From Botryococcus braunii (lineage: Eukaryota > Chlorophyta > Trebouxiophyceae): a stretch of 64,000 nt of DNA. The notes beneath the pieces are model-generated. The model had not been told where the DNA came from, did not search any database, and saw only the letters and a list, made by a program, of their open reading frames with translations. Of the stretch, positions 4,381-50,073 are shown piece after piece. A program made the translations under genes and the position numbers. The first letter of the stretch is position 1; each line of letters opens with the position of its first letter. The DNA is taken from the NCBI GenBank assembly GCA_002005505.1, contig KV908359.1, positions 611,368 through 675,367 of the forward strand. The letters run 5' to 3'.

Positions 4381-4383
4381 AAT

Positions 4384-5166: not shown

Positions 5167-5260
5167 CCACACACACACACACACACACACACAGCCACAC
5201 ACACACACACACACACCACCACACACACCTACACACACACGCACACGCACACGCACGCAG

Positions 5261-5354: not shown

Positions 5355-5356
<2 letters not shown>

Positions 5357-6162: not shown

Positions 6163-6163
6163 C

Positions 6164-6176
6164 TGGTATCGGCGAG
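6164..6176 (+). other. Gypsy B primer-binding site
   Basis: TGGTATCGGCGAG lies one base after the 5' LTR. It is the same as in the TRIM units and nearly the same as in element A. Confidence 0.85.
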
Positions 6177-6378
6177 AGGGGCCAAATTTTGAGCTCCTCT
6201 CGTTGAAAAAATTTCCCAAAGAAGTTTTTCAGAGAATTCTATAGATTCGGATTGGGTTAGTTGTGGTGTGTGTGGCGCTTTTAGGGGCCTACGACTCGGG
6301 TCACCGAGTTTAGGGCCCCCACCCGGACTTTCTCGATTTCCTGTGTCACCCAGCCTCGCCAGCACTGACAGCTCAGAA

Positions 6379-7710: not shown

Positions 7711-8420
7711 GTGGAGTTAGAGAAGGAAACCTCCACACTTTTGTTCCTTGGGAATCTTTTCATTCTTCTATCGAGCAACGTTGTTCTGAGTTTTTGCATT
7801 GTTCTTTTTCTAGAGGCCCCTTTGACAATACCCTACCCGATGGAACGTCTAAACCGACATTTGTTGCAGTACCTATAGGTAAAGCGGAGGACACCTTATC
7901 CACTTTCGCTCGTGAGCAACAAGCAAATAAACATTTAAGTGCTTGTTTTCTAATGGGTAGTAAAGTGGCGAAATCCAAGGCAGTGTACCCATGGCTAAAA
8001 GGCATGAGAGTTATCCTGCAAGGTACCAAGGGACCTGATGTCCCCTACTCCTATGTAGTTTACCATGCCGGACCCAAATTTAGCGTATCTTTTGCTCAAG
8101 CTTTTTCAAATAGGCATTTAGCAATGCTTTTTCATGTTAACTGTACTGGTGTGAAGGGCGTCGCTTTAGTCGATACCGGGGCGACGCACTCGTTCGTCAG
8201 ACATGACTTCCTAGCTACTCTCGGAGTGAGGCTGTCAAAGAAGTGTGTGGATGTCCAGCTTGCAGATGGGCAGACCATGCGCTCGGCGGGGACAGCTAAG
8301 CTCAGGGTGCACTTATCTCAAACATATGTGGAACAGAGGGATTTCATTGTCTGCGAAACTCTGTTGGATGGGGTGGACTTAATCCTTGGTGAGGATTTTC
8401 TGAAAGAAAGAAAAGCTTAA
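7707..8420 (+). pseudogene. Gypsy B pol, protease part
   Basis: This 237-residue frame starts at the ATG that overlaps the gag stop (ATGA, -1 frame). It holds the retropepsin motif [20 protein letters not shown], the ADGQTM region and DLILGEDFL. It ends at 8420, but the expected continuation ([12 protein letters not shown]) is present in another frame just downstream, so a frameshift lies near 8405-8420. The first 130 residues resemble the equivalent part of elements A and E and may be a Gag-Pol linker. Confidence 0.88.
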
Positions 8421-10321: not shown

Positions 10322-11852
10322 GGCATATGAGATAGATGATTGGCTCCATCGTAAACAAAATCGCCGCAAGTTAAGCTTCCATAGTGGCTTGTGGAAGCGC
10401 GGTGCGCGCATTTACGTTCCCTCCCACCATATGAGTTCTGACGGTGTCGAACGTAACCTTCGTAGAGAAATCCTGGAAAATTTGCATGGACCACCTATAG
10501 TTGGTCATCCAGGCAGGGACAGGACCCTCGAATTAGTTCAACGTTCCTGGTGGTGGCCAGGGATGGCCTCAGATGTGGCTGACTTTGTGGCCCAATGTGA
10601 CTCGTGTCAGCGTGTCAAAGCCCCAGCACACTTACCTGTAGGGTTACTACACCCTCTAGAAATACCTGACAGAAAGTGGCAATCAATGTCTATGGACCTA
10701 ATCACTGGACTGCCAAGAACTAAGGAAGGATATGACGCTATCTGGGTTGCTGTTGATAGGTTGTCAAAGTATGCGCACTTCGCTCCGACGACCACTGACG
10801 CAAGTGCAGAAGTGATAGCTCAACTGTTACGGACCCGGGTTTTCACCTTGCATGGGTTTCCCACTCACATTGTATCAGACAGAGATCCTAGGTGGGTGGG
10901 TCGCTTCTGTCAAGAGCTCTTTCGGTTGACCGGTTGTCGCTCTGCGCTATCTACAGCGTTTCATCCGCAGACCGACGGTCAAACGGAACGAATTAATAGG
11001 ATCTTGGAGGATTATTTGCGTCATTACGTCACTGGAAGACACAACGACTGGGATAAACATTTGTGTGAGGCTGAATTTTCTTACAACAACACTTTTCAGC
11101 AATCAATCAACACTACTCCCTTTAGATTGACCTTCGGTCAGGATCCCACGATTCCCTTCCAGGAATTCTATGAAGGTGTGACATCTTCTGTACGTGAGTA
11201 TGTACCAGCAGCAGCAGAGTTTGTACGAAGGATGAGATGGGATCTAGAAAGAGCGCGGACATGTCTCAAAGCTGCGCAGGACCGCATGAAGGCATATGCG
11301 GACGCGAGGAGAAAAGATGCTCCTATTTTAAAAATAGGCCAACCTGTCCTCCTCTCAACAAAGAATCTGAAATTCAAGCATACTCGGACAAGAAAACTCT
11401 TACCTCGGTTTATTGGGCCTTTTCCCATCGTCCAGGAGGTATCATCGGTAGCTTTCAGAATTAGGCTTCCAAAAACTCTGAGGGTTCATGATGTCTTCCA
11501 TGTTTCTATGCTTAAGCCTTATAAGGAAGGTGGGACGGTACAACCTCCTCCTCTACCTGAGATTATTGATGGAGAAGAGGAGTATGAGGTCGAGGCTGTG
11601 CTAGCTCATAGGGAACGAAAGTTACGAGGTCGAAAAACTGCGCGAGAATATCTTGTAAAGTGGACCGGGTATCAGGATATTCATAATACTTGGGAGCCAG
11701 AGGATAACTTAGAACACGCCAGGGAGGCGTTACAGCGGTACTGGGATTTAACCACGGAGCACAGGCCGGAACAAAAAGAAAAGGTGGACAAGAAACGTAA
11801 AGGACGTGGTAAAAATGCTGAGAAGCAGCGGAAGCGCGCTAGGCGCGCTTAG
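10284..11852 (+). CDS. Gypsy B pol, integrase-chromodomain part
   Basis: This 522-residue frame has the full HHCC zinc finger (HGPPIVGHPGRDRTLELV...CDSCQRVK) and the catalytic triad in MDLITGLP, SDRDPRWVG and TERINRILEDYLRHY. The GPY/F module [14 protein letters not shown] comes next. A C-terminal chromodomain (EEEYEVEAVLAHRERK...YLVKWTGYQDIHNTWEPEDNL) and a Lys/Arg tail close it. It inserts element cDNA; in chromoviruses the chromodomain is thought to guide integration to modified chromatin. The frame is intact but lies out of frame with the upstream RNase H. Confidence 0.94.
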   Translation: MDGLRGWGRVLSEAYEIDDWLHRKQNRRKLSFHSGLWKRGARIYVPSHHMSSDGVERNLRREILENLHGPPIVGHPGRDRTLELVQRSWWWPGMASDVADFVAQCDSCQRVKAPAHLPVGLLHPLEIPDRKWQSMSMDLITGLPRTKEGYDAIWVAVDRLSKYAHFAPTTTDASAEVIAQLLRTRVFTLHGFPTHIVSDRDPRWVGRFCQELFRLTGCRSALSTAFHPQTDGQTERINRILEDYLRHYVTGRHNDWDKHLCEAEFSYNNTFQQSINTTPFRLTFGQDPTIPFQEFYEGVTSSVREYVPAAAEFVRRMRWDLERARTCLKAAQDRMKAYADARRKDAPILKIGQPVLLSTKNLKFKHTRTRKLLPRFIGPFPIVQEVSSVAFRIRLPKTLRVHDVFHVSMLKPYKEGGTVQPPPLPEIIDGEEEYEVEAVLAHRERKLRGRKTAREYLVKWTGYQDIHNTWEPEDNLEHAREALQRYWDLTTEHRPEQKEKVDKKRKGRGKNAEKQRKRARRA

Positions 11853-13596: not shown

Positions 13597-14165
13597 GGAT
13601 TCGTACCCGGGACTGCGAGGTCCCTCGGAGGAATCCTACCAACTAGGCCGGGTGTGCCACGTGCCTAAAAGGTACGATCGGTGTTTATCGGCATTGCTCA
13701 GCGGTTAAGTAGGGCTCCGACTATCGGACATCGCCCGATAGTCGTTACATTTCTCCCCCTCTTAGACCACAATCGTCCTCGATTGTGCCTGGGAACGGAG
13801 AATTGGTGGATGGTCCACGTGCCCATACACGTGGGTGGTGGTTGGTGAGTGAGCCCATGGATAAGGACTGTCCGTTACGGAGGGTCCGTTGGAAGATTGC
13901 GTCCGGATGTTACGGCCTGGAATCCCATCCCCCTTGTGGGCAGGCGCGTCGCACCGCGTGATCGCAATGCGAGAGGAAAATGGGTTTCCTGCTCGCCGAT
14001 ACCAAATGTAACGACCGGGATTCGTACCCGGGACTGCGAGGTCCCTCGGAGGAATCCTACCAACTAGGCCGGGTGTGCCACGTGCCTAAAAGGTACGATC
14101 GGTGTTTATCGGCATTGCTCAGCGGTTAAGTAGGGCTCCGACTATCGGACATCGCCCGATAGTCG

Positions 14166-14170
<5 letters not shown>
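13597..14170 (-). mobile_element. TRIM-like unit, copy 2, with both LTR-A copies
   Basis: LTR-A (13597-13749, missing its last 11 bp on the element strand), internal region 13750-14006, then LTR-A (14007-14170, 164 bp). The PPT lies next to 13749 and PBS TGGTATCGGCGAGCAGG next to 14007. The internal region and LTR match 5355-5774 at every base compared. There is no coding capacity, so movement would need proteins from another element, perhaps the chromovirus C family with the same PPT. Confidence 0.82.
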
Positions 14171-26083: not shown

Positions 26084-26710
26084 TTACAGAAAAGCCTCCA
26101 ATGCTTTTCGCTTGTTTTCCAACTCGATGAACTGGCTCAAGCTGCCCTTTAACTGACTGAAGGTGTCCTTGATCTTGGCCAGCCATTCCTGGCAAGTCTC
26201 CTTGCTTCCAGCTTGGCATCCTTCTCGCAACTGCAAGTGCAGCCAGCCCATTTGAGGGCACTTCTTCTTTGCTATCCTGTTAAAGGTCGCAGAACACACT
26301 GGACAACAGCTAGCAAGCGATAAAAGTGGTACGCAAACGTATGAAAGGAGTATTACGGCGTGTAAAGAGCAAATATATACCGAGTAGCAAATAGCTGCAA
26401 TTGTCTGTGCTCCAAAACTCGCAGAACTGCCTTTGAACTGGTGAACCAGCTGATCCACATCGTTGAAATCCACAACGGGCTCGGCGAGCTTTGCCTCTAG
26501 TTTTATGAGCTTCTGTTCAGAGTCCACGAAGTAAAGCTCAACCACTTCTGCGACAAAATTTGGATTTTGTTCGTCCTGGAGCTGCATTAGCTGGGCGAAT
26601 TGGTCGTCGAGAAGACCTTCCTGACCAAGTTTATAGAGCAATTGCTCGATCTGCGCGTTGACAACAGCAAGCTGGCGCTCCACATCTGCACGACTTTGGT
26701 CCTGGAGCAT
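26084..26710 (-). CDS. Histidine-containing phosphotransfer protein (AHP-like), two exons
   Basis: Exons 26710-26381 and 26230-26084 give 158 residues. The 150-bp intron has GT (GTATAT) and AG (CACTTGCAG) ends and keeps phase 0. The product is a four-helix HPt protein: EGLLDDQFAQLMQLQDEQNP, FVAEVVELYFVDSEQKL, then the phosphorylation site VHQFKGSSASFGAQTI with His90. After the intron, REGCQAGSKETCQEWL and a last helix match plant HPt length and order. These proteins relay phosphate from hybrid histidine kinases such as cytokinin receptors to nuclear response regulators. The ATG at 26710 has an in-frame TAG just upstream; a splice acceptor-like TTAGCAG there leaves open a further 5' exon. It converges with the CBP60-like gene. 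Confidence 0.88.
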   Translation of the reverse strand: MLQDQSRADVERQLAVVNAQIEQLLYKLGQEGLLDDQFAQLMQLQDEQNPNFVAEVVELYFVDSEQKLIKLEAKLAEPVVDFNDVDQLVHQFKGSSASFGAQTIAAICYSVYICSLHAVILLSYVCVPLLSLASCCPVCSATFNRIAKKKCPQMGWLHLQLREGCQAGSKETCQEWLAKIKDTFSQLKGSLSQFIELENKRKALEAFL

Positions 26711-27400
26711 TGGCTGCTAACACACAAGTGGCGATAAGCGGACCGTGGATTGCGGAGGCTTCCACACGAAACAATTGACATGCCTGAGGCAAGCCAGCAT
26801 TTATGCTTTTGAAACCGCAGAGCATGAACTAGGCTGGCAGATACGATGCGTCCTGTCAACGCTGTTGCGCCTAGGGTTTCAGGCGACTGGGGACGAGGAC
26901 TGTGCACTAGTGGGGGAGCGCGGCGGGGGAGACTGTGCCTTCTGATTTGACTGATGAGTCATCAGTGATGACACGATTCTAATGAGCCATCGCCGTTGGG
27001 GTTTAGCCCGACGTGAGTCACGTGACCCCAACGGCGTCAGTAGCCCGAAGTTACTGAAATTGGGAAGCACTGGTAGTGCATTATCATCAGGGTTGTCGAA
27101 TTTTCCGGTTGCAACAAATGGCTGGTAAACCTGTCAAAACCCCAAGAGTTTGCGACTTTCCATGGCCTGGAAACCTCATAGTGGTCCCCTGACTGCGGAC
27201 ATCCTGGCCTAGAACTCCAAAGAGGGTGATGGCTTCGCGACAATTGGTGGCCTGGATGCATACAGGTTATTTTCAAGCAGGCTTCATTCTAAAGAGGGGG
27301 CCACGGTCAGTGTTGCGGATTCTGGCCGGATAAGGCCAAATGGGCCGCAATCCCCCTTGCTACTTGGTCATGTTGAATATGTTGTTAGGGGTGGCCACCC
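26711..27400. other. Region upstream of the HPt gene
   Basis: About 700 bp, presumably promoter and 5' untranslated sequence of the HPt gene. No clear coding, RNA or repeat feature seen. Confidence 0.4.
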
Positions 27401-27510: not shown

Positions 27511-27547
27511 CTGAAGCGTATGTGTTAGGTTATGGGCTTGGCGTATT

Positions 27548-28012
27548 CCTGTGCAGTGGCGGCATGGAGGGTGTGAGTCAAGGTCCGCTCTACTGTGTGA
27601 CGAAGAGTAGAGTCTAGGACATGAACAATCAAGGACTGATTGGGCAACTTTAAGGAAACACCCGGAGTGCTTGTGTAGTCCCAAACAAGTCTATTACAAT
27701 TGCTCACTTGCTCTCTCTTAACAACGGAATTCAAACTACCCTAACTGGTACATACTCAGAATGGATCAATCTCCTTGTCCGATGATAAGATAGCCAAGCA
27801 CATGTACATAACATGAAAGACTAAGGCTAACAGAGCCTCAAATCTCCTATTCTATTCACGTTCACGTTACCTGTGCAGTGGCGGCACGGAGGGTGTGAGT
27901 CAAGGTCCGCTCTACTGTGTGACGAAGAGTAGAGTCTAGGACATGAACAATCAAGGACTGATTGGGCAACTTTAAGGAAACACCCGGAGTGCTTGTGTAG
28001 TCCCAAACAAGT
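27548..28012 (-). repeat. 143-bp direct repeat in copia H 3' LTR region
   Basis: 27548-27690 and 27870-28012 are near-identical 143-bp direct repeats, 179 bp apart. On the minus strand the first copy (28012-27871) is followed by CACAG|GTAACG, a donor-like junction. The second is followed by CACAG|GAATACG. They lie within or next to the LTR beginning at 28214. Confidence 0.85.
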
Positions 28013-28213
28013 GCCTTGCCTCTCCGTGCTAGCACCACTACCTTCCTGCACTAAACGTGTCTGTAACTTGCGTTATCTCTATCTACATTCAAATTGATCA
28101 TAACCACGAAGTCTTTGCAGTTTCGCCCATATTAGTCATTTATTATTATCACTGACGGAAAAGCCACTATTACTCCACTGAGGGAAAGGCACACATAACT
28201 CATCTATTACAAC

Positions 28214-28341
28214 ACTTCCCCTTGCCTTTTCCTCACCAGAACTTGGCAAGACCCAGTGAGTCTCGATGACCCTGAAACACAAATCTCACAAGTGGTTTGG
28301 TAAAGATGTCAGCCACATTTCTGGCAGATTGAACATGGGTT
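28214..28341 (-). pseudogene. Copia H (minus) RNase H C-terminus, PPT and LTR start
   Basis: On the minus strand THVQSARNVADIFTKPLVRF and VFQGHRDSLGLAKFW form the end of a Ty1/copia RNase H. The polypurine tract (minus strand of 28215-28233) follows, then TGTTGTAATAGATGAG from 28214, the start of a 3' LTR running leftward. The LTR end was not fixed; CCTAACAACA near 27370-27385 is one candidate. Upstream coding is lost at about 28338, where sequence switches to the opposite-strand copia. Confidence 0.8.
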
Positions 28342-28697
28342 GTATTGCGAATCTGCAAAACCATGTGTTGTCCAAATACACCAAGCACATTAGCGTGTGC
28401 TATCATCAAGCGAGGGAAAAGGTTGCGTGGGGGCAGATTACGCCGGTGTATGTCAACACCGAGGACAATGTGGCTGACATTTTTACAAAGCCGTGGGCCA
28501 GTCCAGCATTTCTCAAGCACCGTGACAGCTTGAGAATGGGTTAAGCCTAGAGTGTTGAAGTTCTAGGGCTTTAGGGCTTTAGGGCTTCAAAGATTCTAGG
28601 TTTGGCTCGGAAGAGTAGTGCGTTAATGGGAACAATTGAACTCAACGTTGTTAACATTAATGAATGACGTTATAAATGTTTTCTAAAAGGGGAAGAT
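28337..28697 (+). pseudogene. Copia D (plus) RNase H C-terminus and PPT
   Basis: GCIANLQNHVLSKYTKHISV, then VNTEDNVADIFTKPWASPAF and FLKHRDSLRMG, is the end of a copia RNase H on the plus strand, terminating at 28544. A 3' untranslated stretch and the PPT AAAAGGGGAAG lead into the LTR at 28698. It abuts copia H back to back at about 28338. Confidence 0.85.
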
Positions 28698-30201
28698 TGT
28701 TGTATAAACTGACAGGTACGTATAGATACGTGATGGCAAACGTACTTAGATACAAGGTCGCTATCAGTTTATCAAGTGGTTTTAGGAAACACTGTATAAC
28801 TTGAACTTCTCCACGTGTGGAGTACAAGTAAGAGGATGCGCCTGATTGCGTGTCTAAGGGTAATGTATTATGATCAGTCAGGTTGATCATATAGTGACCT
28901 CCATGCAGTACAGGTCTTGTACTAGTGACGGTGTGGTCACAAGGTAAAGACTCCATTGAGTGTGTATACGTGTATAAGTTTAGGATCCCTGGTGCAGCTG
29001 TAGAGCTACACGTTGGCATAGGGCCAAGTCAGGGTTGTTTATGTGGCCATGCAGTACGGTACGGCTTCTCAAACGAGACTGTACCGTTACCGCCGGTTAC
29101 GATCAGGAGGTATAGAAACGCCAGATCGCGAGCGAGCTTGGCAGTCGATGGGGTGTGGAATGCATCTGGGCTTCGAGCTCCAAGCTGAATAGTGTTTGCT
29201 CTGTAGTGAATGACTGCTTGATATAATACTGTCACACTCATTACAATACAGGTAAGCGAGCGATCGTTGGCAAGGGTAACGGTCGCAGTCGGATGGCTGT
29301 GATCGCAGGTTTTAAGCGCATGCATACTGATGTTTCTGCTGATAATGAAACATTGCATGTGTCTTGTGTTGCAGGAGCTGCATTGCTTGTGTGTTACTGT
29401 TGTGCGAACAGTAAGGCTATTTGTGTGTGACGAGTTACACACTGGTTAATAGCGGTGAGTACAGATACGTATAACAAGCATGCTCCTGCTGGTTAATTAA
29501 CTGTTTTGTTTTGATCTCTGATGATCCACATATTGTGCAGATTGGTTGGGAGTAGCCATCAAACTCCTGGGACTGCTGAGGGCCAAGGGTGCCCTGATCG
29601 GAGAGCAGTCGGTACGTGCACATATGTGGATAGGTTGCGTGTGTGTTTGCTATGGTTTAGATATATTTTAAGGACACTGATGAACCCACAAGTAAATCGT
29701 AACGCTCGGGTGCAGGCAGATATAGACGGCAGTGCGAGCACTGGTCTATATAGACATTGAGAGTACTTGGTGGTGTTCACAGGTAAATATACATAAACCA
29801 TTTGTAACGAGTCGATGGGGTGTGGAATGCATCTGGGCTTCGAGCTCCAAGCTGAATAGTGTTTGCTCTGTATTGAATGACTGCTTGATATAATACTGTC
29901 ACACTCATTACAATACAGGAGCTGCATTGCTTGTGTGTTACTGTTGTGCGAACAGTAAGGCTATTTGTGTGTGACGAGTTACACACTGGTTAATAGCGAT
30001 TTGTTGGGAGTAGCCATCAAACTCCTGGGACTGCTGAGGGCCAAGGGTGTCCTGATCGGAGAGCAGTCGGCAGATATAGACGGCAGTGCGAGCACTGGTC
30101 TATATAGACATTGAGAGTACTTGGTGGTGTCACAGGGGATACGTCTCTCTTCATGCACACGGACGAGCTGACCGATACGTCTGCCACCTTCATATACAAC
30201 A
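28698..30201 (+). repeat. Copia D LTR, about 1504 bp, containing unspliced and spliced tandem copies
   Basis: Begins TGTTGTATA and ends TATACAACA, a perfect 9-bp inverted pair. It is preceded by a PPT and followed by a primer-binding site. Inside, 29143-29782 holds blocks E1-E4 separated by GT...AG segments 29252-29374, 29455-29540 and 29612-29715. The same blocks recur without those segments at 29810-30135, with joins at 29918/29919, 29998/29999 and 30069/30070. It is related throughout to the LTR at 48571-50073. Confidence 0.85.
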
Positions 30202-30208
30202 ATTGGTC

Positions 30209-30219
30209 ATGGGCCCACC
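30209..30219 (+). other. Copia primer-binding site matching the initiator tRNA-Met anticodon arm
   Basis: ATGGGCCCACC is complementary to GGTGGGCCCAT of the conserved plant initiator tRNA-Met anticodon arm, 7 bp after the LTR end. This type of internal (half-tRNA) priming is established for Drosophila copia. Confidence 0.7.
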
Positions 30220-32063: not shown

Positions 32064-34559
32064 CTAAGGTCGCACAGCACCTGGGAGAGTGAGGTAGCTC
32101 TCCAGTGCTCTAGTCACAAATTTGGCAACCCCTTCAAGGTCTTCTTGCCACATAAACGTCTGTACAGATCGACTCCTTTGTTGAAAAAGATGCATAAATT
32201 GTTGCCGTACATGTTGTACAGCCGGACAAGTGAACAACAGATGATGTTCATCACCAACGAGCTCTAAGGAGCACCTCGTGCAAATCCTCTGGTCTCGAGG
32301 GATGCCTTGTTGTCTACCTTTATCAATAGGAAGGTCATGACACCCTAATCTAAATCGCATAAAGGTCCGCAATGTACCATTAGGAAGGTGGAGTTTGAGC
32401 GCACTCTTACTCCGTGGTACATGAGGCGGACGTGCGAACCACCTTTGGTATCTGCAGAATAAGGCTCTTGGGGATGCACAAGAGCGAGGGGAGATGTCTA
32501 GGTCATCCCATATCATGTCACTTTTACGGTCTAACAGATCCTTTACCTGTGAAATGTCAATCTGCAAGGCTCTGTCAAACCGCACATGGTCAGCTATATA
32601 GTATCCTAGTTTCTTAAGTTGTTGCATAAGGGTACCCGAAAACGTTTCTCGGCCTTCTACTATTGCCAACCTAATGTCATGCATGAGGACCTTGTAGTGT
32701 AATGAATCAGGTCTCATGGCCGCTATATTGTTCCAAAACCTAGCCATACGTAAGATCCAAGTTGACCACAAAGAGAATATGTTTAATTCACAATTGATTA
32801 TTTCCTCAGGGATTGTCCGACGTACCCCCAAAATCTGAGCTAGGACCCGCTTGTGCGCATCCAATAGGGGTATACTACTAGGTTTTCCCGAAGACAATTG
32901 TCTGCCTTGAAAGCATCTGATTGCCCAGACTTCACATCCATAGGAGATGAGGGGTGGTAGGCAAGCTAAGTACAATTCTGTCATGAGCATCATTGACATG
33001 TTGCAACCAAGATTGCTATAAGCTCTAGTAAGGTCTTCCCATGCTACCCAGAACCTCTGCTCGAGGTTCTTAATGCCGGCTTGAAGGCCATTCTTGGCAT
33101 GAATCTGTAATCCAAGGTATTTAACCTCCTGTACCGGACTAATTCTAACCCCTGCAACCTCCAGAGAGGTAGAGAGTGTCAGAGGGTCTGGATTTACTGA
33201 AAGGTATTGCGTCTTGGCCCCATTTAGGCGCATGTCCATACTCTTACACCATTCTTGAGTAGCATTCACCAACACCTGTAGGTCCTCAACTGTAGGCGCG
33301 ACGAGAACAAAATCGTCGGCAAAGCCTAGCACTTGGATACGTATTATATTTAAACGTGTGCCATCAGGTAACTGAAGGCCAGCCGTGGGGCAATGGTGTG
33401 CAAGATATCGGGGGAGTCCATCCGACATAATTCCAAATAGTGTAGGGCTAATGGGGCACCCTTGAGGAACACCCGCACTTGATTCAAACAACCCCCCATG
33501 TTTGCCCTCAATTTTGATCGCCAATACTGTACTGTCTATTACAGCTTGGGTAGCATATAGAAAATCCCCTTGGATTCCCAACTGCTCCAAAATATGCCCT
33601 AACTTAAGACGCGATACCCTGTCATAAGCTTTAGAGAGGTCCAGGAATGCAAAATGGAGTGGAGTGATGCCCATTGCCCAATCTATGAGATGTTGTATAA
33701 CAAACAGTTGATGGGTGGTGGACATTTCAGGACGGAAGCCTGTTTGGCAATCAACACGCAAACGGTACTTCTCCAAGTAAGATACTAAGCGCGAGTTCAA
33801 CACGTTGGCATACAACCTCATAAGAGATTCGCCCACGGCAATGGGACGATAATTTCCTGTGTTATACGCGTCCCCTTTCTTATATACCGGTGTCACCAAA
33901 CATACATTTGACTCCGCCGGTATGGTACGTTGTCTAAGCGCCATAGTAAAAATGTCCGCAATGACATGACTTAACATGTTTCGTGAGTAAGGATCCCCCG
34001 GGTGTGTAAGTGGTTGAGCATACCTAAACAACTCTGTAGGGTAACCATCTTTCCCCGGGGATTTCCCATTGGCAAGTGCTCGGAGACCCAATTCAATTTC
34101 CTCGACTGTGAAGGGAGCATTCAGCTCGTCGCACTGATCGTGACCATGATCTTCTGGGACTTGATGGGGAGGATATGCCCCAATAGGCAGACCATGCGCG
34201 GGCTCTTCATTTCCAAGACCACTTGCAAGGGAATTTATATAAGAATCCCAAGCTGACACATCTCTAAGGGGTTCAGGCAGTCTATCTCTTTCACGCCGAA
34301 GGGTTTTCCAAAACCTATGGGGGTTGAAATGCTTTTGGTGTACCAATGTTTTCAGCTTTTGGGCCTGGTATGCCCTTTTCTTTTTCCTCACAATAGCATG
34401 GTACTTTCGCTCTAACCTCCGGAACTCATCACCCCGCCATTTGGTTAACATTCCATACCTCCAGACTTCCCGTTTAAGGGCCCGGCATTCCTGATCAAAA
34501 AAGGGTTGATGTTGACGCCGGTGTCCATTGTGGGGATATCTTTTGTATTGGTCATGCAT
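32064..34559 (-). pseudogene. LINE ORF2, reverse transcriptase and Cys-His C-terminus
   Basis: An 831-residue frame with non-LTR RT motifs: NGKSPGKDGYPTELF, NYRPIAVGESLMRLYANVL, TGFRPEMSTTHQLFVIQHLI, LHFAFLDLSKAYDRVSRLKL, GVPQGCPISPTLFGIMSDGL and catalytic VLGFADDFVLVAP. The C-terminus has a CCHC-like motif, CTRCSLELVGDEHHLLFTCP, typical of LINE ORF2. The same frame stays open upstream of its first Met for about 90 bp (EKAAADGDIKTSIHCLYALI), showing it was continuous with the endonuclease before the frameshift. RT function looks intact on its own. Confidence 0.93.
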
Positions 34560-34641
34560 TCCTGCTTTCTTTGCAGCATCTTTTATGAGTGCATAGAGGC
34601 AATGAATGCTAGTCTTAATGTCCCCATCAGCAGCCGCTTTT

Positions 34642-35514
34642 TCACATGTGGCTCATGAGGTTTAACTCATCACTCTGTAATGCTTGGACATATTGATCCC
34701 TTGCAAATTGGCACCAGCTAAATTGTGACAATGGGTGTCCCCCTTGAGCAGAAGAGCGACACGGTCTAGGATGAATAGGAACAGACAAGGATGCACATAG
34801 TGGGAAATGGTCAGACTCTGACCTCTCACAATCAATGCCACTGTCTTCTAGGTGTGGGATAAGATTTGGGGATACAATGATATGGTCAAGTCGTGTTGCA
34901 GCTGATCTACGCGTACCATGGTACGACACACCGGCCGGGATATCTCCCCTGACACGGCCAGTGCAAATGTAAACGCCTAATTTGTGGACAGCACGAAGAA
35001 GTTGCCGCCCATGGGGATTGACCTTTGGGTCCCCTCCAGGGGCCATGGGGGGAAGGGGACCAACTCTAGAATTAAGATCACCCCCTAGGAAAGCGTACCC
35101 TTCTACCTTTGCCTTACCGAGTGTTTTCTGGATTTCTTTCATTCTATTAGACAAACTCAAAGATGATAGAAGGGGTGATCCAGAAGGGGGAATGTAAGTT
35201 GTTCCGATGATTAGAGGTAGTCCACCACCCTTGAACTGAATCTTAGCCCACAACGATCCTTGTTTGGTGCAATAGGGGAGAATATGGTATTCATTGCTAT
35301 ATCGAATACCAAGCAATAAGCCTTCCCCTGCCCTCCCTGAGTGTGATGCAGGGTGAAAGAATAGCTTGAAGGGGGCCCAGAGGTCTCTTTCGATAATTTG
35401 TCTTCTAGTCTCACTGAGCATGATAATGTCAAAGGTGTGAAGGTACTCTAAGAGGCCTCGAGATAACAGTTTTTCAGTGCTAAGGCCATTTATGTTCCAA
35501 ACTATACATCTCAA
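34642..35514 (-). pseudogene. LINE ORF2, apurinic-like endonuclease domain
   Basis: This 290-residue domain starts MRCIVWNINGLSTEKLLSRG and contains MLSETRRQ, TYIPPSGSP, GGDLNSRVG, GRRSAATRLDHIIVS-type and SESDHFPL motifs. These are the metal- and DNA-binding residues of APE-type LINE endonucleases that nick the target to prime reverse transcription. It ends prematurely at 34642 by frameshift relative to the RT. Confidence 0.92.
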
Positions 35515-35535
35515 CCTCAGGTGGCTAGATATTTC

Positions 35536-36816
35536 CTATTGAGGGGTTGAGGGGTTGGGACCCAGGTCACCTCCCTCTAGGGTGGAAGGAGTCATAAGCT
35601 CTTCAAGCTCTGGCTCGCGTTGAATGGCGATACGCTTGCCATCGGTGGCCCCCGGGACATGGCGGGGAGTCGTCCTCTGCTGGGGTGGCATCCAATCCAT
35701 GCCTTCAGCTGTGGCTGCATCCTCTCGTTGTACTTCGCTTACGGTGTAGGGCATTGTGGCTTGGACGCCAGGGGCTCGGTCAGCGTGGGCGGCAGCCGGC
35801 CGGCCCCCAGGCACTTGTCGGGGACGTGCGCCCAGGGTCCCCCCGGCTGGGGCAGCTGCCGTACGAGCCCCGGGCGCGTTTTGGCGGGTGCTATGTGTCG
35901 CCGTAGGTGTGACGTTCCCTCTGCTCATTGCAGAGGCCCTCCGAGACTCAAGCACTGTGCGCGATCTGCCATTGACAATTGTCTTCCAGGCGTTGGGCTT
36001 GGGATCCAGGTGTGCTGGCTGGATTTCGTTGGAATAGTCCCTCATGGGTGGGGCCGGCCCATGAGGTTGACTGCTGGTCGGAGGAGTTGGTGCTACCCGG
36101 GGCTCTTGGGAAGCCCGGGCAGGAGGTGGGCCAGGAGGAGCTCCTCCTGGGACCCACTGATTGACTCTCCCATCTGCTCCGCGGAAGCAGAGGGTTCCTC
36201 CACGCCACAGCACTGGATAGCCTTGGGCTTTAAAGGCCTGGAAGTTGGGCAGAAGGCGCCGGCGTGCTTCTTGTTGGCTCGGGGTGAGGTCCTCTGCAAG
36301 AGAGAGGGAACGCCTTCTAAGGCGCTTGCTATGCTTGAAAGCGGCATTTCGTGCCCTTGTCGAGTTGAACTTCACCAAGACTGGCCGCGGCCTTGCAGCA
36401 TTGGCCTTGAGTTGGCCGAGGCGGTAGGTGTCCACAATGTTGGGGATCAGCGATGTGAGATCCCTGTCCCCCCCAAATAACTGCCGGACATCCCCATCCC
36501 CCAAGTGCTCCTCGATCCCATAGACAATGATATTTGTCGCCTTTGAGATGATTTTTTGATGTTCCACGGTTTGTTCCAGTTGTAAAATACGGTCTTGTTG
36601 GTGTTCAACTCTGTCAGAGAGCGAAGAGACTCGGCCCTCTAGAATCGCGACTTTCTCAGCAAGTTTATTTTCATTTACTTCAATATCAATCGTACCATCC
36701 GAGCCAGCAGGGGAGAACGGGGCATTGCGCTTCCCTCCCCTTGTTGCATTGGCATCTGATGGCTGCGGCAAAGCCTTTTGTGGAGTACGGAACAAATTTA
36801 TTGCTGACGATATCAT
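35536..36816 (-). CDS. LINE ORF1 protein, coiled coil and RNA-binding region
   Basis: A 426-residue frame with an acidic and heptad-rich stretch (about residues 48-95: LAEKVAILEGRVSSLSDRVE...LQLEQTVEHQ), suited to multimerisation. An L1-ORF1-like RNA-binding module follows (NIIVYGIEEH; PRPVLVKFNSTRARNAAFKH; LTPSQQEARRRLLPNFQAF), then a long Pro/Ala/Arg-rich tail. It has no CCHC knuckle. ORF1 proteins bind LINE RNA as a particle. The ATG at 36816 opens the element, and its stop lies 21 bp before the endonuclease ATG. Confidence 0.8.
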   Translation of the reverse strand: MISSAINLFRTPQKALPQPSDANATRGGKRNAPFSPAGSDGTIDIEVNENKLAEKVAILEGRVSSLSDRVEHQQDRILQLEQTVEHQKIISKATNIIVYGIEEHLGDGDVRQLFGGDRDLTSLIPNIVDTYRLGQLKANAARPRPVLVKFNSTRARNAAFKHSKRLRRRSLSLAEDLTPSQQEARRRLLPNFQAFKAQGYPVLWRGGTLCFRGADGRVNQWVPGGAPPGPPPARASQEPRVAPTPPTSSQPHGPAPPMRDYSNEIQPAHLDPKPNAWKTIVNGRSRTVLESRRASAMSRGNVTPTATHSTRQNAPGARTAAAPAGGTLGARPRQVPGGRPAAAHADRAPGVQATMPYTVSEVQREDAATAEGMDWMPPQQRTTPRHVPGATDGKRIAIQREPELEELMTPSTLEGGDLGPNPSTPQ

Positions 36817-36826
36817 TTGTAGATAA

Positions 36827-39557
36827 GTGAATCATATAATGTCTGTCTGGTATGGTTTCATGGAATTTCGTGGAATACTTAAAAGTGCTGTGGTGTACGC
36901 CGGAAGGTTAGGCTTAATCAGCTGTGTCAGGCTGAACGCTGTGAGAGGAAGTGAAGTGTATGACCAGACCTCAAATCGTTCTCAAAGCAAGGTTTCTGGA
37001 AATAATCCCAGCAGTACAGGGACTATGGCAACACCAGCAGGAGGCAGCACAGCCTCCTCAGGAGCTGGACAGTCAGGACAGACCACTGGAGGCACTGCAG
37101 CCAGCTCGTATGCATACACAATGAACTCCTCCAATCCCAAGATGTCTACGCAGCTAAAGGCTGACCGCACTAATTTCAGGGCCTTGCGTGAAGAGCTGGA
37201 GTCCTGCGCAATGCAAAAGGGAGCTATGGGAGCGTTGGAGACACCCATGCCTAAGACTGCAGAGAACGCAGCAGTAAAACATTTCATGTTGCAGTCTGTC
37301 CCACCCATGTGGCAGGCCGAAGTCAAACAGCGGGGGAGCGCTTTTGACTTCATTCAGTGGATGGCAGACCGCTGCACTGGAGGGAAGGAGAGGGAAATCA
37401 ACGAGAAGTGGATCAAGGGGCTCAAACAAGGCATGGTGAAGGGAGAGACAGTGCAAGAATGGTGCCACCGAGTCATCAGTATTGCCGCCTCCCTGGAAGC
37501 CAATAACCATCAGCTGGGCGACCGCCAGATCTGCAAGTATATGTATAAGGGGCTACCTGCAGTCTTGCAGAACGACGCCTGGGCAATTACCTCCGCCAAG
37601 TCAGACCCCTACAACATGCTGGAGACGATCCTCACTGCCATTGAGAACTTGGAGTACCAGGATATCCCGTTGGCAGAGTCATTGCATGTCACAGCATCAG
37701 CTGCAGCAGTTGTGGCAGCAGCAGCAGCAGCCGTGCCAGCTCAGGGTGGAATCCCTGGGCCTCCTCAAGGCGCTGGAGCTGCACCGGGCGCTGGAGCAGC
37801 ACCAGGAGTGGGAGCTGGAGCACCTGCTGATGGTCAGGCCATCTATGGCCCTTCTGCTCACAACGCTGGACGCAAGGGGCGAGGGTCTGGACGTGGCGGG
37901 AGGCCAAAGGAGGAACTAGCGTGTCGCTTCTGCAACAGGACGGGACATTTCTTGAGGGAGTGCCTGGATCTGAAGAGGCTGCAAGCCCTACATGGCACAA
38001 TGCAAGCTGCAAGTGCGGGCCCGGCTGCGTGGTGGGGCCCTGAAGCTCCTCAGCAACAAGCCAGCTGGTGGGATGCTGGCCAATCCAGAAGAGGCCCTCC
38101 CGTGTCAACCTCACATGCTGCTGGATCTGTGTCCACTATCTTCCCATGCCACAATTTCTTCCCAGGCTGGCATCTCCCACCACCACCTCCTCCAGGTGCT
38201 GGTGAGCCTATGTTCGTTTCGTTGAATTTGCTTACCCCTACGTCTCATGGGGCTTGCAGTACCTCGTGGCTGATAGATAGTGGTGCATCGGTGCACCTTG
38301 TAAATGATCTGTCGTTACTAAACAACCCTGTCATGCATGCCCGACCCCTCCCTCTTCACTTGGCCACTTCTGACGCCAAAGGAGGGATAGTTGCAACTGG
38401 GTCTGTGTGTCAGGTCAATGCCAAACAAGAGGTGTTTTGGCTGCATAATGTGCAGTGTGTGCCCACTGCACACACTAATCTGATTTCTGTCACAGGAGCC
38501 ATTCAGGATGGAGCGTCATTCCTCACTGACAGTGCAGGTGGGTACACGATCATGAAAGGCCTAGCAGGCTGGTGTGGTCAGATAGCCAGAGAGCGAGGGC
38601 TTTTTTTTTTTTTTTTAGAATGGGTGTGTCCAGTCAAGAGCCAGCATGCTGCGCAGCCACAGTCTAGTCCTCTTGCTGCCTCGTATCATGCTAGGAAAGG
38701 ACACGTGTGTATAGATAGACTACTGTGGCATGCAAGGTTGGGTCATCCTGGTGTTAAGAATATGACAAGGTCTTTCAACGAGGATCTGGTAACTGGGATC
38801 CATGTGTCCCTTGCTCCATGCTCAGAGTGTCCTCCCCAGTGTGAGTCATGCATACAAGGGAAGCATTCTCGCCCCCCCTTTCCAGCTTCATCCAGACCTG
38901 CAGAGAGTGTGTTAGATCGAGTGCACGTGGATACTATGGGGCCCATTTCACCAGCTGCCATCACGGGAGAGCGGTTTTGGGTTATTGTGGTTGATGACAA
39001 ATATCATCTGATAGCCTCCTTGGCAGTGAAGTCGAAAGAAGTCATTCCCAAGGCCCTCATTGAGCTCTTGAAGTACTGGCAGACATTTCATGAGAAAGTG
39101 GTGAAGTGTGTGAGATCTGATAGAGGGACAGAATTTCTGAATCAGCAGTTCAAAGAATTTTGTGCTCAGCAGGGCATTAAAATGGAGACCTCAGCTCCAT
39201 CCACGCCTTAGCAAAATGGACTTGCTGAGCGCATGAATCGGACTCTGAAGGAGCGCACAAGGACCCTGTTGGTGCACGCTGCAGCAGACCCTTCCCTGTG
39301 GAAGGAGGCACTGGAGTCTGCCACCTTGCTTTACAACGTGGGCCCCACCACAAGCAGGCCTCTGACCCCTACTGAGATGTTATATGGGGTAAAGCCTGAT
39401 GTTGTTTCCTTGCGCACATGGGGCTGTGTGGCACATGTTCACATTCCCCCAGGTAAGCGGTCTGTATTTGGACCAAAGACCATTCCAGGCATGTTCACTG
39501 GGTATTGCCCACAGTCTAAGGCCTATAGAGTGTACGTAGGCAATGGTGTATGGAAAG
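36827..39557 (+). pseudogene. Copia-2 gag-protease-integrase, interrupted
   Basis: One frame with a single TAG at 39209-39211. Gag (MNSSNPKMSTQLKADRTNFR...; IKGLKQGMVKGETVQEWCHR) carries an Ala/Gly/Pro linker and CCHC knuckle CRFCNRTGHFLREC. Protease is WLIDSGASVHLVND. The integrase zinc finger is LLWHARLGHPGVKNM...CESCIQGKHSRPPF. The catalytic core has HVDTMGP and VRSDRGTEFLNQQF, then the stop in place of Gln (APSTP-stop-QNGLAERMNRTLKERT). It runs to GVWK, where gypsy E is inserted, and resumes at 44606 as ESRDVTFLEHL. An apparent first Met at 36827 lies close to the LINE junction, so MATPAGG at about 37025 may be the true start. Confidence 0.9.
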
Positions 39558-40333: not shown

Positions 40334-42823
40334 CTACTGGACAACCTCTTGGGCATGTTCTATTAATCCTGCTTCTGGTTCCCATGAGTTTCGCTCAGGC
40401 CCGTAGCCTTTCCATTTTTCCAAGTATTCTTTCTTTGGCGCATGGTGCGCAGCCTTCTTCTCTCGATGCATCAGAATACACTCCACCTCGTATTCCCAAT
40501 CACCATCAATCCAATCTGGCGGAGGTGAGGGAGCCACATTGACACCCTTATGATATGGCTTCAACAGCGACACATGAAACACATTGTGAATGGTGTATTC
40601 ATCAGGCAACTCCAGCCTATATGCAACAGCGCCAATTCTAGCCAAAATCTTGAATGGCCCAATGAAACGAGGCAAAAACTTCTTGGTGCCAGGATGCTTC
40701 CAACGAATATTCTTAGTGGACAAGAGTACTTCTTGCCCAACTTCATACTCAACATGTCTGCGCCCCTGGTTAGCATAAGTGCGCTGCCTATCTTGTGCCT
40801 CAATCAGGTTGCGCTTCGCTAACGCGAGATCATCATGCAACTTTATAGCAAATCTTTTGGCCGACGGAAAAGTGGTCCCAGAAATCACTGCAAAAGGCTC
40901 AATAGGATCCTCCCCATACACCAACCGGAATGGAGTTGTGCGAACGGATTCTTGATAAGCATTGTTATAAGCGAATTGTGCGGCTGGCACATGCACATCC
41001 CAATCATGTTGTGTAGGACTAACATAATGCCGCAACATGTCTTCCACAATGCGATTCACACGCTCAGTTTGGCCATCAGTCTGTGGATGATAAGCCGTTG
41101 AAAAGACAGACCTCGTGCCCAAAATTTTAAACAACGCTTTAGTGAAGGCACTCGTGAACACCGTTCCGCGATCAGTCAACACCTCTTTAGGCATACCGTG
41201 CAGCTTAAACACACGATCCACAAACACATCAGCAAGACCTTCAGCAGACAGCTGATCAGTTGCTGGGATGAAATGCGCATATTTAGACAGTCTGTCCACA
41301 ACCACAAGGATAGCATCATTCCCGTTCACTGTTTTGGGTAAGTCAGTAATAAAATCCATGGAGATGCTTTCCCACCTTCGTGAAGGAATTGGTAGAGGCT
41401 GCAGCAGACCAGCTGGCAGTGAGGTATCCACCTTGTTGCGCTGGCACACATCGCAAACGCGAAGAACATCTTCAACACCTTCCCTCAGCTTCGGCCACCA
41501 AAAATACCGTTGTAATTTCTCCAACATTTTAGTCCGGCCCACATGGCCAGCCTGTGGCACTTCATGGTTTTCTTTGAGAATGGCTTCTTTGAGCTCTTTA
41601 TCTGTACCATCTGCCATTTCGGGAACATACATTGCTTTTCCACGGAACCAGTAACCATCTTTAGCGACCAACTTCGCTCTTTGTCTTTTACGCCCATCCC
41701 TTAGAAGATGATCCTTCTCATACGCGGTCCGTATGCGGTGCAACCAGTCTTCCCCATCGGGGCACCACATGGTGAACCCATCCGGGCACGCGTCGCCCGA
41801 GTCACTTGCTGCTCCAGGGACCACCCCACCTAATGGCGGGGCCGTACCGCCTCCAGTGGAACACGCCCCCTTGCGCGTAAGTACAGCACACCTAATACGA
41901 TGACCTATGCCGCGCCCCCCCATCGCGGCCCTATGCTGAACAGAGCCCCTAGGAGTGTGCACCAAAGAACTAACAACGAACGCTGGATTCCTACTCAAAG
42001 GGTCCGCAACATTAGTACGACCGGGCTCATACTTCCACTCTATAGAGTACATCTGGAGCAACTCCGACCACCTGGCTTGCCGAGGGCTCAAAACCGATTG
42101 GGACGGCAAAAACGTGTTTGCTGCATGATCAGTGACCACTTCAAAGGGTTTCCCAAGGAGATAACATCGCCAATCAGTCAATGCCATACACACTGCAGCC
42201 AACTCTTGCTCGGTGACATGATAATTTCTCTCAGCATAAGAAAATTTCCGGCTCATATAGGCACATGGGCGTCCATTTTGCTCAAGCACAGCACCAACAC
42301 CATTCTTTGAGGCATCACACACGACCCGAAACTTAGGCGCATCCGGGGAGAGATCAGGGATTGCCAACACTGGGGCATTTGTGATGGCCCACTTCAACCC
42401 ATCAAAGGCTTTTTGACATGCATCAGTCCACAGCCAAGGGACACCTTTTCGCAATAAGTGATTCAACGGGGCAGCAAGTTGACTATACCCCTGCACAAAT
42501 TTCCGCGAAAAATTGCAGAGGCCCAAAAACTGTCGTACCTCAGTGGCCGTCGTCGGTACAACCCACTTCATCACTGCTGCGACTTTATCCGGATCAATCT
42601 TGATTCCATGCTTCCCCACAATAAAGCCAAGATAGCGTAGTTCAGGCTGACAAAAAGAACACTTCTTTAGCTTCACAAACAATTTCTCTTCACGTAGGCG
42701 CTCGAACACTTTTTGCAAATGCTCTTTATGCTCTTCCTCGGTTTTAGAGAAGATCAAAACATCATCAAGGTACACTACCACAAAGCCTTCAGCCACAAAG
42801 TCATGGAATACGCGATTCATCAT
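40334..42823 (-). CDS. Gypsy E pol, RT C-half, RNase H, integrase, chromodomain
   Basis: An 829-residue frame. It enters within RT just before [15 protein letters not shown]. RNase H has [34 protein letters not shown] and [12 protein letters not shown]. The integrase HHCC finger is [15 protein letters not shown]...CDVCQRNKV, and the catalytic core has [18 protein letters not shown] and [19 protein letters not shown] ([14 protein letters not shown]) and a chromodomain ([17 protein letters not shown]...[17 protein letters not shown]) close it. It overlaps the upstream frame by 4 bp because of a one-base shift inside the RT motif FGLT(N)AP. Confidence 0.93.
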
Positions 42824-44412
42824 ACGTTGAAAAGTAGCGGGGGCATTGTCAAACCGAAGGGTAGAACTTTGAACTCATAATGGCCAAAAGGGACACGGAA
42901 AGCAGTTTTGGGAACATCTTCCTCTTGCAAGCGAATTTGGTGATAGCCAGAGAGTAAATCAAGACTTGTAAAGCACACAGCACCTTGCAGTTTATCAAGC
43001 AACTCATCAATCCGCGGGAGAGGATAACGATCAGGGACAGTAATGCGGTTTAACGCACGATAGTCGATAACCATACGCAACGTGTCATCCTTTTTCTTCA
43101 CAAACAGAACAGGGCTGCTAAACGGACTGCAACTTGGTTGAATCAATCCCTGCTCAAGAAGTTCAGCAACCTGTCTCTGTGCTTCTTGCAACTCAGGCAA
43201 AGCTAAACGGTAACCAGGTCGGGATGGAGGAACATGTTCACTATACAATGGGATAGTGTGGAACAGATGTCTGTCAGGAGGTAGGCCTTCTAATTTCTCA
43301 GAAAAGACATCACTGAACTCAGCACGAAGATGTTGACAAATGGGGTGATTCAATCCACTTTTATCAGAAGGGACATCGGCCTTGTTTGTAGGCCCAAAAG
43401 CAGGTTCGAACTCTTTAACATCATGATCATAATCGCTATGCCCTTCGTTACGCGCTTCGTTGCCCTCTTGCCTATCAACATGTTCATGCCCTTGCTCATC
43501 CGAGCATGTCTCGTTATCATGCCCTTCAGTCTTGCTTACCATGCCCACAAACACTGGACAGCCTTGCTTCATACAGCGCGCCAAATGCCTCGCAGAGATG
43601 ACAGGGGACTTCTTTCTAGCGCTCCTAGCAGTAGCAGAAATGGACTTAACAATCACGCCTCGCCCTCTGTTCCAAAATGTACACGTATCTTCCGCTACAT
43701 CAATCTTGGCCTTATAGCGCTTAAGGAAATCCATGCCCAACAAGACATCACAGTCACCAGCCAATTTTGGTAGCACATAATAAGTATGCACACAAGGCAA
43801 AGACTTGAAAACTGTTCTCAACTTCACTTGATGCACCACTTTCGCAATGTCACCCGTGGCCACTTCCACTTCCAATTCATCCACTTGTTGCGGGGTTATG
43901 TTCACTTTCTTCAGAAATTCTGCCGAGATGAATGAGAGTTCTCCCCCGGTATCAACTGCACAATCAGCGGTTGCCCCTGCAACCATACCGCGCAAGACCA
44001 TTTGCGCTTCGGGGTGTTCTTTTCTCACCATTGATATACTGGGCCTCTTCTTGTCATACCACACTTCAAAAGACCATGGGGCCACAATTCTCTCTTCCCC
44101 ATGCGCACTTTTCAAAGCTACACTTTCGTTGCGCCTCCCCTCCATAATTCTCTCTTTACTTTTTAAAAGGGGAGCAACACTTACTGCCTTAGCAACTCGT
44201 TTGGGCAAAACAAAATAAGCGCCAATCTGACGGGCATTCTTCTTCAGGGCATTATACTCGGAGAGCACTTCATGGGCTTTTTCGGGCTTACGCACGAACG
44301 CATACACATGACCATCTCGCGCGCGCGCTATACAGCTCACCGTACTGAACTTCCCACTTGTATAACAACGGGGTGACACGCGGGGAGCAACTAAGCCCCC
44401 TTGTGGTGGCAA
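42820..44412 (-). pseudogene. Gypsy E pol, protease and RT N-half
   Basis: A 530-residue frame. Residues 1-31 read through the 78-bp segment and are probably not native. The conserved part starts [17 protein letters not shown], shared with gypsy F. The protease is unusual in having [16 protein letters not shown] (DTGG rather than DTGAT) and [14 protein letters not shown] begins [34 protein letters not shown] and LPFGLT. A single-base loss at about 42849 shifts the frame before NAPATFQ. Gag is absent upstream. Confidence 0.9.
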
Positions 44413-44605
44413 AGGAAGAGAGAGAGAGAGAGAGACGAGACACCAGTCAGGTTAGAGCATTCAGCGGAATCTGTTACAAGCCGGTCAGCACCGGGACTTC
44501 CTTCGACGCCAAGACGCGTGCCACTTTCCAGAGCCTTCATTTCAGGACCCGGCAGCTTCCTGCCCGAAATCCTGGCATTGGACCTGGCAGCTTCCTGCCG
44601 TTACA
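44402..44605 (-). repeat. Gypsy E 5' LTR
   Basis: 204 bp, as the 3' LTR but with a longer GA run. No PBS follows on the element strand; instead the sequence AGGGGGCTTAGTTGC leads into the 78-bp repeat. Confidence 0.88.
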
Positions 44606-48570: not shown

Positions 48571-50073
48571 TGTTGTATAAACTGATAGGTACGTATAGAT
48601 ACGTGATGGCAAACGTACTAGATACAGGGGCGCTATCAGTTTATCAAGTGGTTTTAGGAAACATTGTATAACTTGAATTTCTCCACGTATGGAGTACAAT
48701 TAAGAGGATGCGCCTGATTGCGTGTCTAAGGGTAATGTGTTATGTTCAGTTAGGTTGATCATATAGTGACCTCCATGCAGTACAGGTCTTGTACTAGTGA
48801 CGGTAAGGTCACAAGGTAAAGACTCCATTGAGTGTGTACACGTGTTTAAGTATGAGATCCCTGGTGCAGCTATAGAGCTACACGTTGGCATAGGGCCAAG
48901 TCAGGGTTGTTTATGTGGCCATGCAGTACGGTACAGCCTCTCGAAAGGAACTGTACCGTTACCGCCGGTTACGATCAGAAGGCATAGAAACTCCAGATCG
49001 CGAGCAAGCTTGGCAGTCGATGGGGTGTGGAATGCATCTGGGCTTCGAGCTCCAAGCTAAATAGTGTTTGCTCTGTATTGAAGGACTGCTTGATATACTG
49101 CTGTCACGCTCATTTCAATACAGGTAAGCTAGCGATCGTTGGCAAGGGTAACGGTCGCAGTCGTGTGGCTGCGATCGCAGGCGTTAAGCACATGCATACT
49201 GATGTTTCTGCTGATAATGAAACATTACATGTGTCTTGTGTTGCAGGAGCTGCATTGCTTGTATGTTACTGTTGTGCGAACAGTAAGGCTATTTGTGTGT
49301 GACGAGCTACACACTGGTTATAGCGGTGAGTACAGATACGTATAACAAGCTTGCTCCTGCTGGTTAAATAACTGTTTTGTTTTGATCTCTGATGATCCAC
49401 ATATTGTGCAGATTGGTTGGGAGTAGCCATTAAACTCCTGGGACTGCTGAAGGGCCAAGGGTGTCCTGATCGGAGAGCAGTCGGTACGTACACATATGTG
49501 GATAGGTTGCGTGTGTGTTTTATATGGTTTAGATATATGCTATGGACACTGATGAACCCACAAGTAAATCGTAACGCTCGGGTGCAGGCAGATATAGACG
49601 GCAGTGCGAGCACTGGTCTATATAGACATTGAGAGTACTTGGTGGTGTTCACAGGTAAATATACGTAAACCATTTGTAACGAGTCGATGGGGTGTGGAAT
49701 GCATCTGGGCTTCGAGCTCCAAGCTGAATAGTGTTTGCTCTGTATTGTAGGACTGCTTGATATACTGCTGTCACGCTCATTTCAATACAGGAGCTGCATT
49801 GCTTGTATGTTACTGTTGTGCGAACAGTAAGGCTATTTGTGTGTGACGAGTTACACACTGGTTATAGCGATTGGTTGGGAGTAGCCATTAAACTCCTGGG
49901 ACTGCTGAAGGGCCAAGGGTGTCCTGATCGGAGAGCAGTCGGCAGATATAGACGGCAGTGCGAGCACTGGTCTATATAGACATTGAGAGTACTTGGTGGT
50001 GTTCACAGGAAGTGATTCTCTGACGGCATACGTACCGCTTACAGTTACGGCATCCTCCAACTAATACACAACA
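48571..50073 (+). repeat. Copia-3 5' LTR, 1503 bp, with unspliced and spliced tandem copies
   Basis: TGTTGTATA...ATACACAACA. The region 49015-49654 contains GT...AG segments 49124-49246 (123 bp), 49326-49411 (86 bp) and 49484-49587 (104 bp). The copy 49682-50008 lacks exactly these, with joins at 49790/49791, 49869/49870 and 49941/49942. The lengths agree: 640 minus 313 is 327. Confidence 0.88.

Follow-up and report, generated by a model that had tools for sequence, protein, structure and literature searches.

The window, that is, the whole 64,000-nucleotide stretch of Botryococcus braunii DNA analyzed here, contains on its plus strand an LTR of a Copia family (family 1) that carries its putative leader twice: as an intron-bearing copy (U) with four exons (E1-E4) and three introns (i1-i3) and, behind a short linker (L), as a spliced copy (S). 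The parts of this LTR and its immediate flanks are as follows:

5' of the LTR at 28698, plus strand: PPT-like sequence AAAAGGGGAAGAT
28698..30201, plus strand: family 1 Copia LTR, 1504 bp, with the ends TGTTGTATA..TATACAACA, which are the same in sister copies
28698..29142, plus strand: U3
29111-29118, plus strand: TATA-like sequence TATAGAAA, 32 bp upstream of the start of the repeat
29143..29782, plus strand: U, the unspliced leader copy (E1-E4 with i1-i3), 640 bp
29143-29251, plus strand: exon E1 of U, 109 nt
29252..29374, plus strand: intron i1, 123 bp, GTAAGC..GCAG
29375-29454, plus strand: exon E2 of U
29455..29540, plus strand: intron i2, 86 bp, GTGAGT..GCAG
29541-29611, plus strand: exon E3 of U
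29612..29715, plus strand: intron i3, 104 bp, GTACGT..GCAG
29716-29782, plus strand: exon E4 of U
29783..29809, plus strand: L, the linker, 27 bp, with a donor GTAAAT at its start and TTTGTAACG at its end, abutting S
29810..30135, plus strand: S, the spliced copy of U, 326 bp, with joins at 29918/29919, 29998/29999 and 30069/30070
29783..30135, plus strand: putative intron 4 (L and S together), with donor GTAAAT and acceptor GTGTCACAG, predicted from its boundaries
30136..30201, plus strand: U5, 66 bp
30205..30219, plus strand: putative PBS GGTCATGGGCCCACC (variant GGTTATGGGCCCACC in copy L081)

An earlier note on this DNA had described the three GT..GCAG segments in 29143-29782 and a tandem copy at 29810-30135 without exactly these segments, and all of its coordinates, lengths and joins proved correct. 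The alignment it proposed gave, after splicing of U, 323 identities, 3 mismatches and 1 gap between U and S. The gap corresponds to the one base by which S was said to be short; it is real in E4 of the window S, but many other S copies are 99-100% identical to the final 68 bases of U, so the family as a whole does not lack this base, and we rejected its absence as a fixed mark of a one-off copying event. Three features had been overlooked: the conserved GT that opens L, the ending of S where that GT would splice, and a related duplication in the neighboring Copia LTR on the minus strand. An RNA family search of the LTR returned only one sub-threshold miRNA match, located just outside it.

At 28294-28492, two oppositely oriented Copia RNase H ends adjoin each other, and as a consequence the LTR at 28698 has a PPT-like end on its 5' side and a putative PBS on its 3' side. 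We take this putative PBS to resemble the complement of the initiator tRNA anticodon arm; it has 593 exact matches in the genome, a count that pools tRNA genes and PBSs. The second family 1 LTR of the window is followed by a Copia gag-pol:

48571..50073, plus strand: second family 1 LTR, with U at 49015-49654, L at 49655-49681 and S at 49682-50008
50858-54691, 3' of the second LTR: gag-pol with Retrotran_gag_2 (E 0.00013, a match under its cut-off), Pol_BBD, gag_pre-integrs, rve and then RVT_2, the Copia order

With INT before RT (RVT_2), paired TG..CA LTRs and 5-bp target duplications, family 1 is a Ty1/copia family. Its putative PBS may be a further likeness; Ty1/copia elements that use a half-tRNA initiator Met primer include copia and Volvox Osser. 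Its LTRs depart from the ordinary U3-R-U5 plan with a single leader copy in that two copies are present, one of them with introns; to our knowledge, known Copia elements have U3-R-U5 LTRs that contain neither introns nor a spliced tandem copy.

The window also contains a piece of a host gene for a histidine phosphotransfer protein (26333-26716, minus strand) that over 87% of its length is 99% identical to a protein of Botryococcus braunii (jgi Botrbrau1), in line with Botryococcus, a chlorophyte, as the host. By eye, a LINE-like element with endonuclease and reverse transcriptase ORFs (32064-36831, minus strand) and several Ty3/gypsy-like gag-pol copies (69-11852 and 40334-44451) were also seen.

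The 176 Mb genome has 35 matches to the chlorophyll-binding protein family. A search of this genome for further LTRs of family 1, as suggested in the earlier note, showed that the layout of U followed by S recurs family-wide. We parsed 70 LTR loci, including both family 1 LTRs of the window. U is complete in 65 of them, and each of these has S behind it (complete or nearly complete in 61, partial in 4), which excludes chance; in the remaining five loci U is truncated or internally deleted and S is kept. Throughout the 70 loci no S has an intron and no complete U lacks one, with the exception of the middle copy of L026 (see below). For a sample selected independently of U and S we took the best 40 matches to U3 alone and read 32 of these, all of which carry U and then S (interrupted by N runs in three copies and truncated in two). 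Truncated S copies were considered as alternative splice products and rejected, as L032, L075 and L079 run into assembly N and L039 and L069 are truncated or rearranged (in L069 the last exon of S is cut short).

Pattern searches of the genome gave 148 unspliced E1|i1 and 141 spliced E1|E2 junctions with up to three mismatches, together with 123 U3|E1 and 77 L|S junctions. Among the matches listed, 81 of 100 spliced junctions are preceded on their strand by an unspliced junction, which in 66 cases is 667-670 bp away. That 20 of 100 listed unspliced junctions have no partner among the matches listed made U without S a candidate ancestral form, which we rejected, as the five of these 20 loci that we read (L003, L014, L045, L055, and L091) each had an S missed by the pattern or the listing. 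By exact patterns U3 leads into unspliced E1 at 133 places and into spliced E1 at three, bearing in mind that the two patterns differ in length by one base and miss changed anchors, e.g., S with GAGTTGC. Matching 5-bp flanks were present in 10 of the 15 LTR pairs tried and absent in L070/L071, L030/L073 and L051/L052, while L033/L032 and L049/L050 could not be judged for a target duplication. The loci L038, L040 and L090 (C163) have a common 3' flank and are apparently segmental duplications of LTR fragments.

The splice dinucleotides of i1-i3 and of the L donor are changed in only 3 of 882 cells across 63 aligned U copies, compared with change rates of 7.9% (i1), 3.1% (i2), and 4.4% (i3) elsewhere in the introns. 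None of the donors of i1-i3 has lost its GT in these copies, and AG is kept at 187 of 189 acceptors; the donor GT opens L in 62 of 63 LTRs. As judged from these substitution patterns, the splicing signals are under constraint. Gaps that vary independently or lie at other positions, which the earlier note had named as the result that would speak against a spliced copy, were not seen in the 70 loci parsed, the middle copy of L026 excepted. In 58 of 61 copies S terminates with ACAG|G at precisely the L donor position, the exceptions being L052 and L060, which have a changed end, and the truncated L069. Because the end of S coincides with the donor position, the border between S and U5 itself looks like a splice junction, and we infer that L and S together constitute a fourth intron, removal of which would join E1-E4 directly to U5.

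The poly(A) signal of chlorophytes is UGUAA, generally located around 15-20 nt upstream of the cleavage site, according to the accessible text of PMC1868727. A count of TGTAA over 63 LTRs of family 1 gave 62 in L, none in U and three in S and U5 combined; in L the motif begins 20 bases past the GT that opens L and 7 bases before S. TGTAA in L is likely the poly(A) signal of the element and, given its position relative to S, cleavage would be expected about 8-13 bases into S. Transcription would start at the A of AGTCGATGG, the start of U, although the TATA-like box in U3 reads CATAGAAA in many other family 1 copies, a point we count against the model presented below. If both the start site and the poly(A) site hold, R would consist of the first ten or so leader bases only, and the splice donor present in family 1 would lie between the two, each of these roles being assigned from the sequence.

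If S were a single old copy, U and S would be expected to accumulate different mutations. We compared the two in 60 LTRs with both copies, leaving aside L033, L064 and L069, which are incomplete in one copy, and L014, which has an insertion inside its U. The commonest base is the same in U and S at every column of these 60 LTRs, and at 21 polymorphic exon columns U equals S within the same LTR in 56-60 of the 60, with shared alleles present in all four exons. The exons of U and S are identical in nine of the 60 LTRs, and the differences within one LTR range from 0 to 9 of ~327. When the set was de-duplicated to one LTR per recognized or presumed insertion (n = 46), minor exon alleles of U recurred in their own S in 141 of 162 cells (31 expected), and the mean distance between U and its own S was 3.11, as opposed to 8.79 when permuted (lowest value among 5000 permutations, 6.61). 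The same agreement is found in L091, a deeply diverged relative that differs from the window exons by 49 mismatches and 20 gap bases and has an intron 1 of 138 bp rather than 123 bp: after splicing, its U differs from its own S by four mismatches and one 9-bp insertion, and its joins are at its own GT-AG borders. The agreement of alleles within LTRs, L091 included, means that S has been remade from U repeatedly and is not the fossil of one event.

Distances between S copies correlate with those between U exons (r 0.77) and U introns (0.70), and hardly with those of the adjoining U5 (0.12; 54 LTRs, with seven of the set left out). The low value for U5 is weak evidence on its own, because U3 also tracks U poorly (0.28), though the model would pass both on together; recombination is therefore common in family 1. 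Taken with the exact joins, the sharing of alleles suggests that S is rebuilt through spliced RNA during copying of the element. The earlier note had attributed S to splicing and reverse transcription, and had proposed that spliced leader cDNA is joined to an unspliced LTR; both ideas are supported, the replication step itself being a reconstruction, with the refinements that the remaking is recurrent, that L and S should leave as intron 4 if the layout is to stay stable and that L has a likely poly(A) signal.

The neighboring Copia LTR on the minus strand, which represents family 2, follows the same plan but has no internal introns:

27523..28214, minus strand: family 2 Copia LTR
28214-28013, minus strand: U3
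28012-27871, minus strand: X1, first leader copy, 142 bp
27870-27691, minus strand: L2, GTAACG..TGTAATAG, 180 bp, with TGTAA at its end
27690-27549, minus strand: X2, second leader copy, the 142-bp repeat
27548-27523, minus strand: U5, short

This LTR matches that of family 1 at chance level only. A primer-site-like GGTTATGGGC lies behind the LTR in two sister copies. The genome search for family 2 gave 1026 first-look candidates, 40 of which were scored, and 41 of the 42 matches listed span at least query positions 1-690 of 695, both X copies included. Private bases are common to X1 and X2, namely ACTTGT in the window, ACTTGG in L093 and ACTTGA in L094, plus others, so that X1 and X2 are also concerted in these three copies, few as they are; splicing would leave no internal trace there. 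The occurrence of a donor, a TGTAA-ended linker and a leader copy in two families argues for a working design. The 153-bp repeats at 13597/14018 were examined as a third such family and rejected, as they begin TGTAACGACT and have neither the donor nor the leader-copy plan. These direct repeats (13597-14170, 421 bp apart, starting TGTAACGACT on the minus strand) look like the short LTRs of a small element, perhaps TRIM-like; the 300 bp that start at 13597 are repeated exactly at 5366.

We consider it probable that the family 1 LTR is regenerated from a single RNA whose two ends have undergone different processing. Transcription would start at U. At the 5' end of the RNA, introns 1-3 would be spliced and intron 4 removed to give a leader E1E2E3E4-U5-PBS, while at the 3' end cleavage would follow shortly after the poly(A) signal of L, at a site a few bases into S, and U would stay unspliced (the retention of introns 1-3 in this U is an assumption of the model). 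The RNA would consequently terminate with the first ~8-13 leader bases (R), its 3' part comprising U3, U with its introns, L and R. Strong-stop cDNA, primed by the tRNA and consisting of spliced leader and U5, would then transfer to the short R behind L, and its extension would copy L, unspliced U and U3, restoring U3-U-L-S-U5. S would be new in each cycle, the introns would persist because they are kept at the 3' end, and the poly(A) signal, being inside an intron, would be usable at one end only. Retention of intron 4 would add one extra copy, and cDNA landing on E1 of U instead of on R would produce U3-S-U5. Two further points count against the model: E1 of the 3' U offers a 109-nt landing site, which is larger than the R we propose, yet U3-S-U5 is rare (3 vs. 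133), and U and S are not always identical within an LTR.

Several unusual LTRs bear on these expectations. L038 has the form U-L-S-L-S, and L026 the form U-L-P-L-S, in which intron 3 is kept in P. L025 and L026 (C21) belong to one insertion with the target duplication TGCAC, of which the 5' LTR is U-L-S and the 3' LTR is U-L-P-L-S. The forms of L026 and L038 fit intron-4 retention and, equally, unequal crossing-over in E4 or E3; as crossing-over gives the same forms and L026 shares its insertion with a plain L025, the arrays carry little weight and we do not lean on them. The exact pattern identified three intronless U3-S-U5 LTRs, L088 (C365) and L089 and L092 (C48), the latter two being one insertion with both LTRs intronless and matching CCTCC target duplications. 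All three share a U5 variant, which makes a mobile intronless lineage possible; such a lineage, without U and L, may itself have moved at least twice. In the young insertion L043/L044 (C174; 4 differences in 1505, target duplication CGGAG), U is from one lineage and S from another, with 7-8 differences of ~327. A mosaic of this kind would be expected where the two RNA ends stem from different RNAs. The S of L043/L044 resembles that of L051/L052 but its U5 does not, and as U5 did not accompany the foreign S, a second template switch must be assumed; the mosaic is compatible with the model and is not proof of it.

The main rival explanation is that one ancient event of splicing and reverse transcription made S and that gene conversion or unequal crossing-over between DNA copies has since kept the exons alike. 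In favor of this, direct repeats of 62-110 bp are present at spacings of 354-667 bp, the rare forms L026 and L038 are those expected from unequal crossing-over in E3 or E4, and the 142-bp repeats of family 2 would be easily converted. Conversion, however, should sometimes move introns between U and S, for which the middle copy of L026 is the sole candidate in the 70 parsed loci, and it would have to account for shared alleles in all four exons and for exons that are identical in nine of 60 LTRs. It also gives no role to the conserved splice sites or to the TGTAA abutting S. On this evidence we regard it as unlikely.

We give somewhat less credence still to a promoter in L, from which genomic RNA would start at S, with S as a plain U5, U and L as plain U3, and ordinary replication, S being refreshed occasionally by spliced RNAs that start upstream. 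L is AT-rich with TAAATATA 19-26 bp upstream of S, a TGTAA just before S would then work at the 3' end only, and BARE is described in the accessible part of PMC3735527 as having two TATA starts with different RNA fates. Against such a promoter, the conservation of the splice sites and the tight sharing of alleles between U and S would require upstream starts and splicing to be frequent, and by eye there is no TATA-like box near -30 in L2 of family 2. A start in L, with S as an ordinary U5, may apply to some of the RNA. An artefact of assembly or annotation is conceivable in that repeats may collapse or chimerize and N runs do lie inside S at L032, L075 and L079, yet it is contradicted by >130 copies on many contigs, the 5-bp target duplications, deep subfamilies and the second family, and we consider its probability negligible. 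The remaking of the LTR from two differently processed RNA ends is thus the reading that we prefer. On balance, we also favor, a little less confidently, the broader proposal that these elements represent a class of LTR retrotransposons of this green alga whose genomic RNA undergoes splicing at the 5' end but not at the 3' end, in which the poly(A) site is in a leader intron, the spliced leader is reinstalled in each cycle and introns survive, and which comprises at least two Copia families with unrelated LTRs.

Penelope-like elements also keep introns through retrotransposition, by means of a different reverse transcriptase and a target-primed mechanism that lacks the strand transfer of LTRs; family 1 has RVT_2 and rve rather than a PLE-type reverse transcriptase. 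Individual components of the layout are already known from other systems. In foamy viruses the major splice donor is upstream of the LTR poly(A) signal, and recognition of the donor decides between suppression at the 5' end and cleavage at the 3' end; the accessible text describes no intron-bearing LTR or spliced second copy (PMC3694450). An effect of U1 on the poly(A) site of family 1 would be only an analogy to this. The Copia element BARE has pools of spliced and unspliced RNA and two start sites, its splicing favoring a Gag subgenomic RNA, with no tie to LTR structure described in the part of the paper available (PMC3735527). For an LTR that holds an intron-bearing leader copy and a remade spliced one, searches of an open-access library listed no precedent. 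Two candidates for an intron-bearing LTR were rejected, as the accessible text of PMC4256276 concerns the bacterial ltrB gene and that of PMC5542766 a vector, LTR1.20, with an intron in its leader. In the B race of Botryococcus, LTR elements are reported to predominate among class I elements and manual curation has been called for (PMC11286282, accessible text).

The layout described here illustrates how an element replicating via spliced genomic RNA can retain its introns, and it provides a natural means of confining use of the poly(A) signal to one end even though the two ends are identical. Replication through spliced RNA should, after all, delete introns. If S is indeed a fresh record of the parental leader, each genomic copy would store the states of both parental LTRs, and strand transfer, template switching and splicing could then be studied from genome sequence alone.
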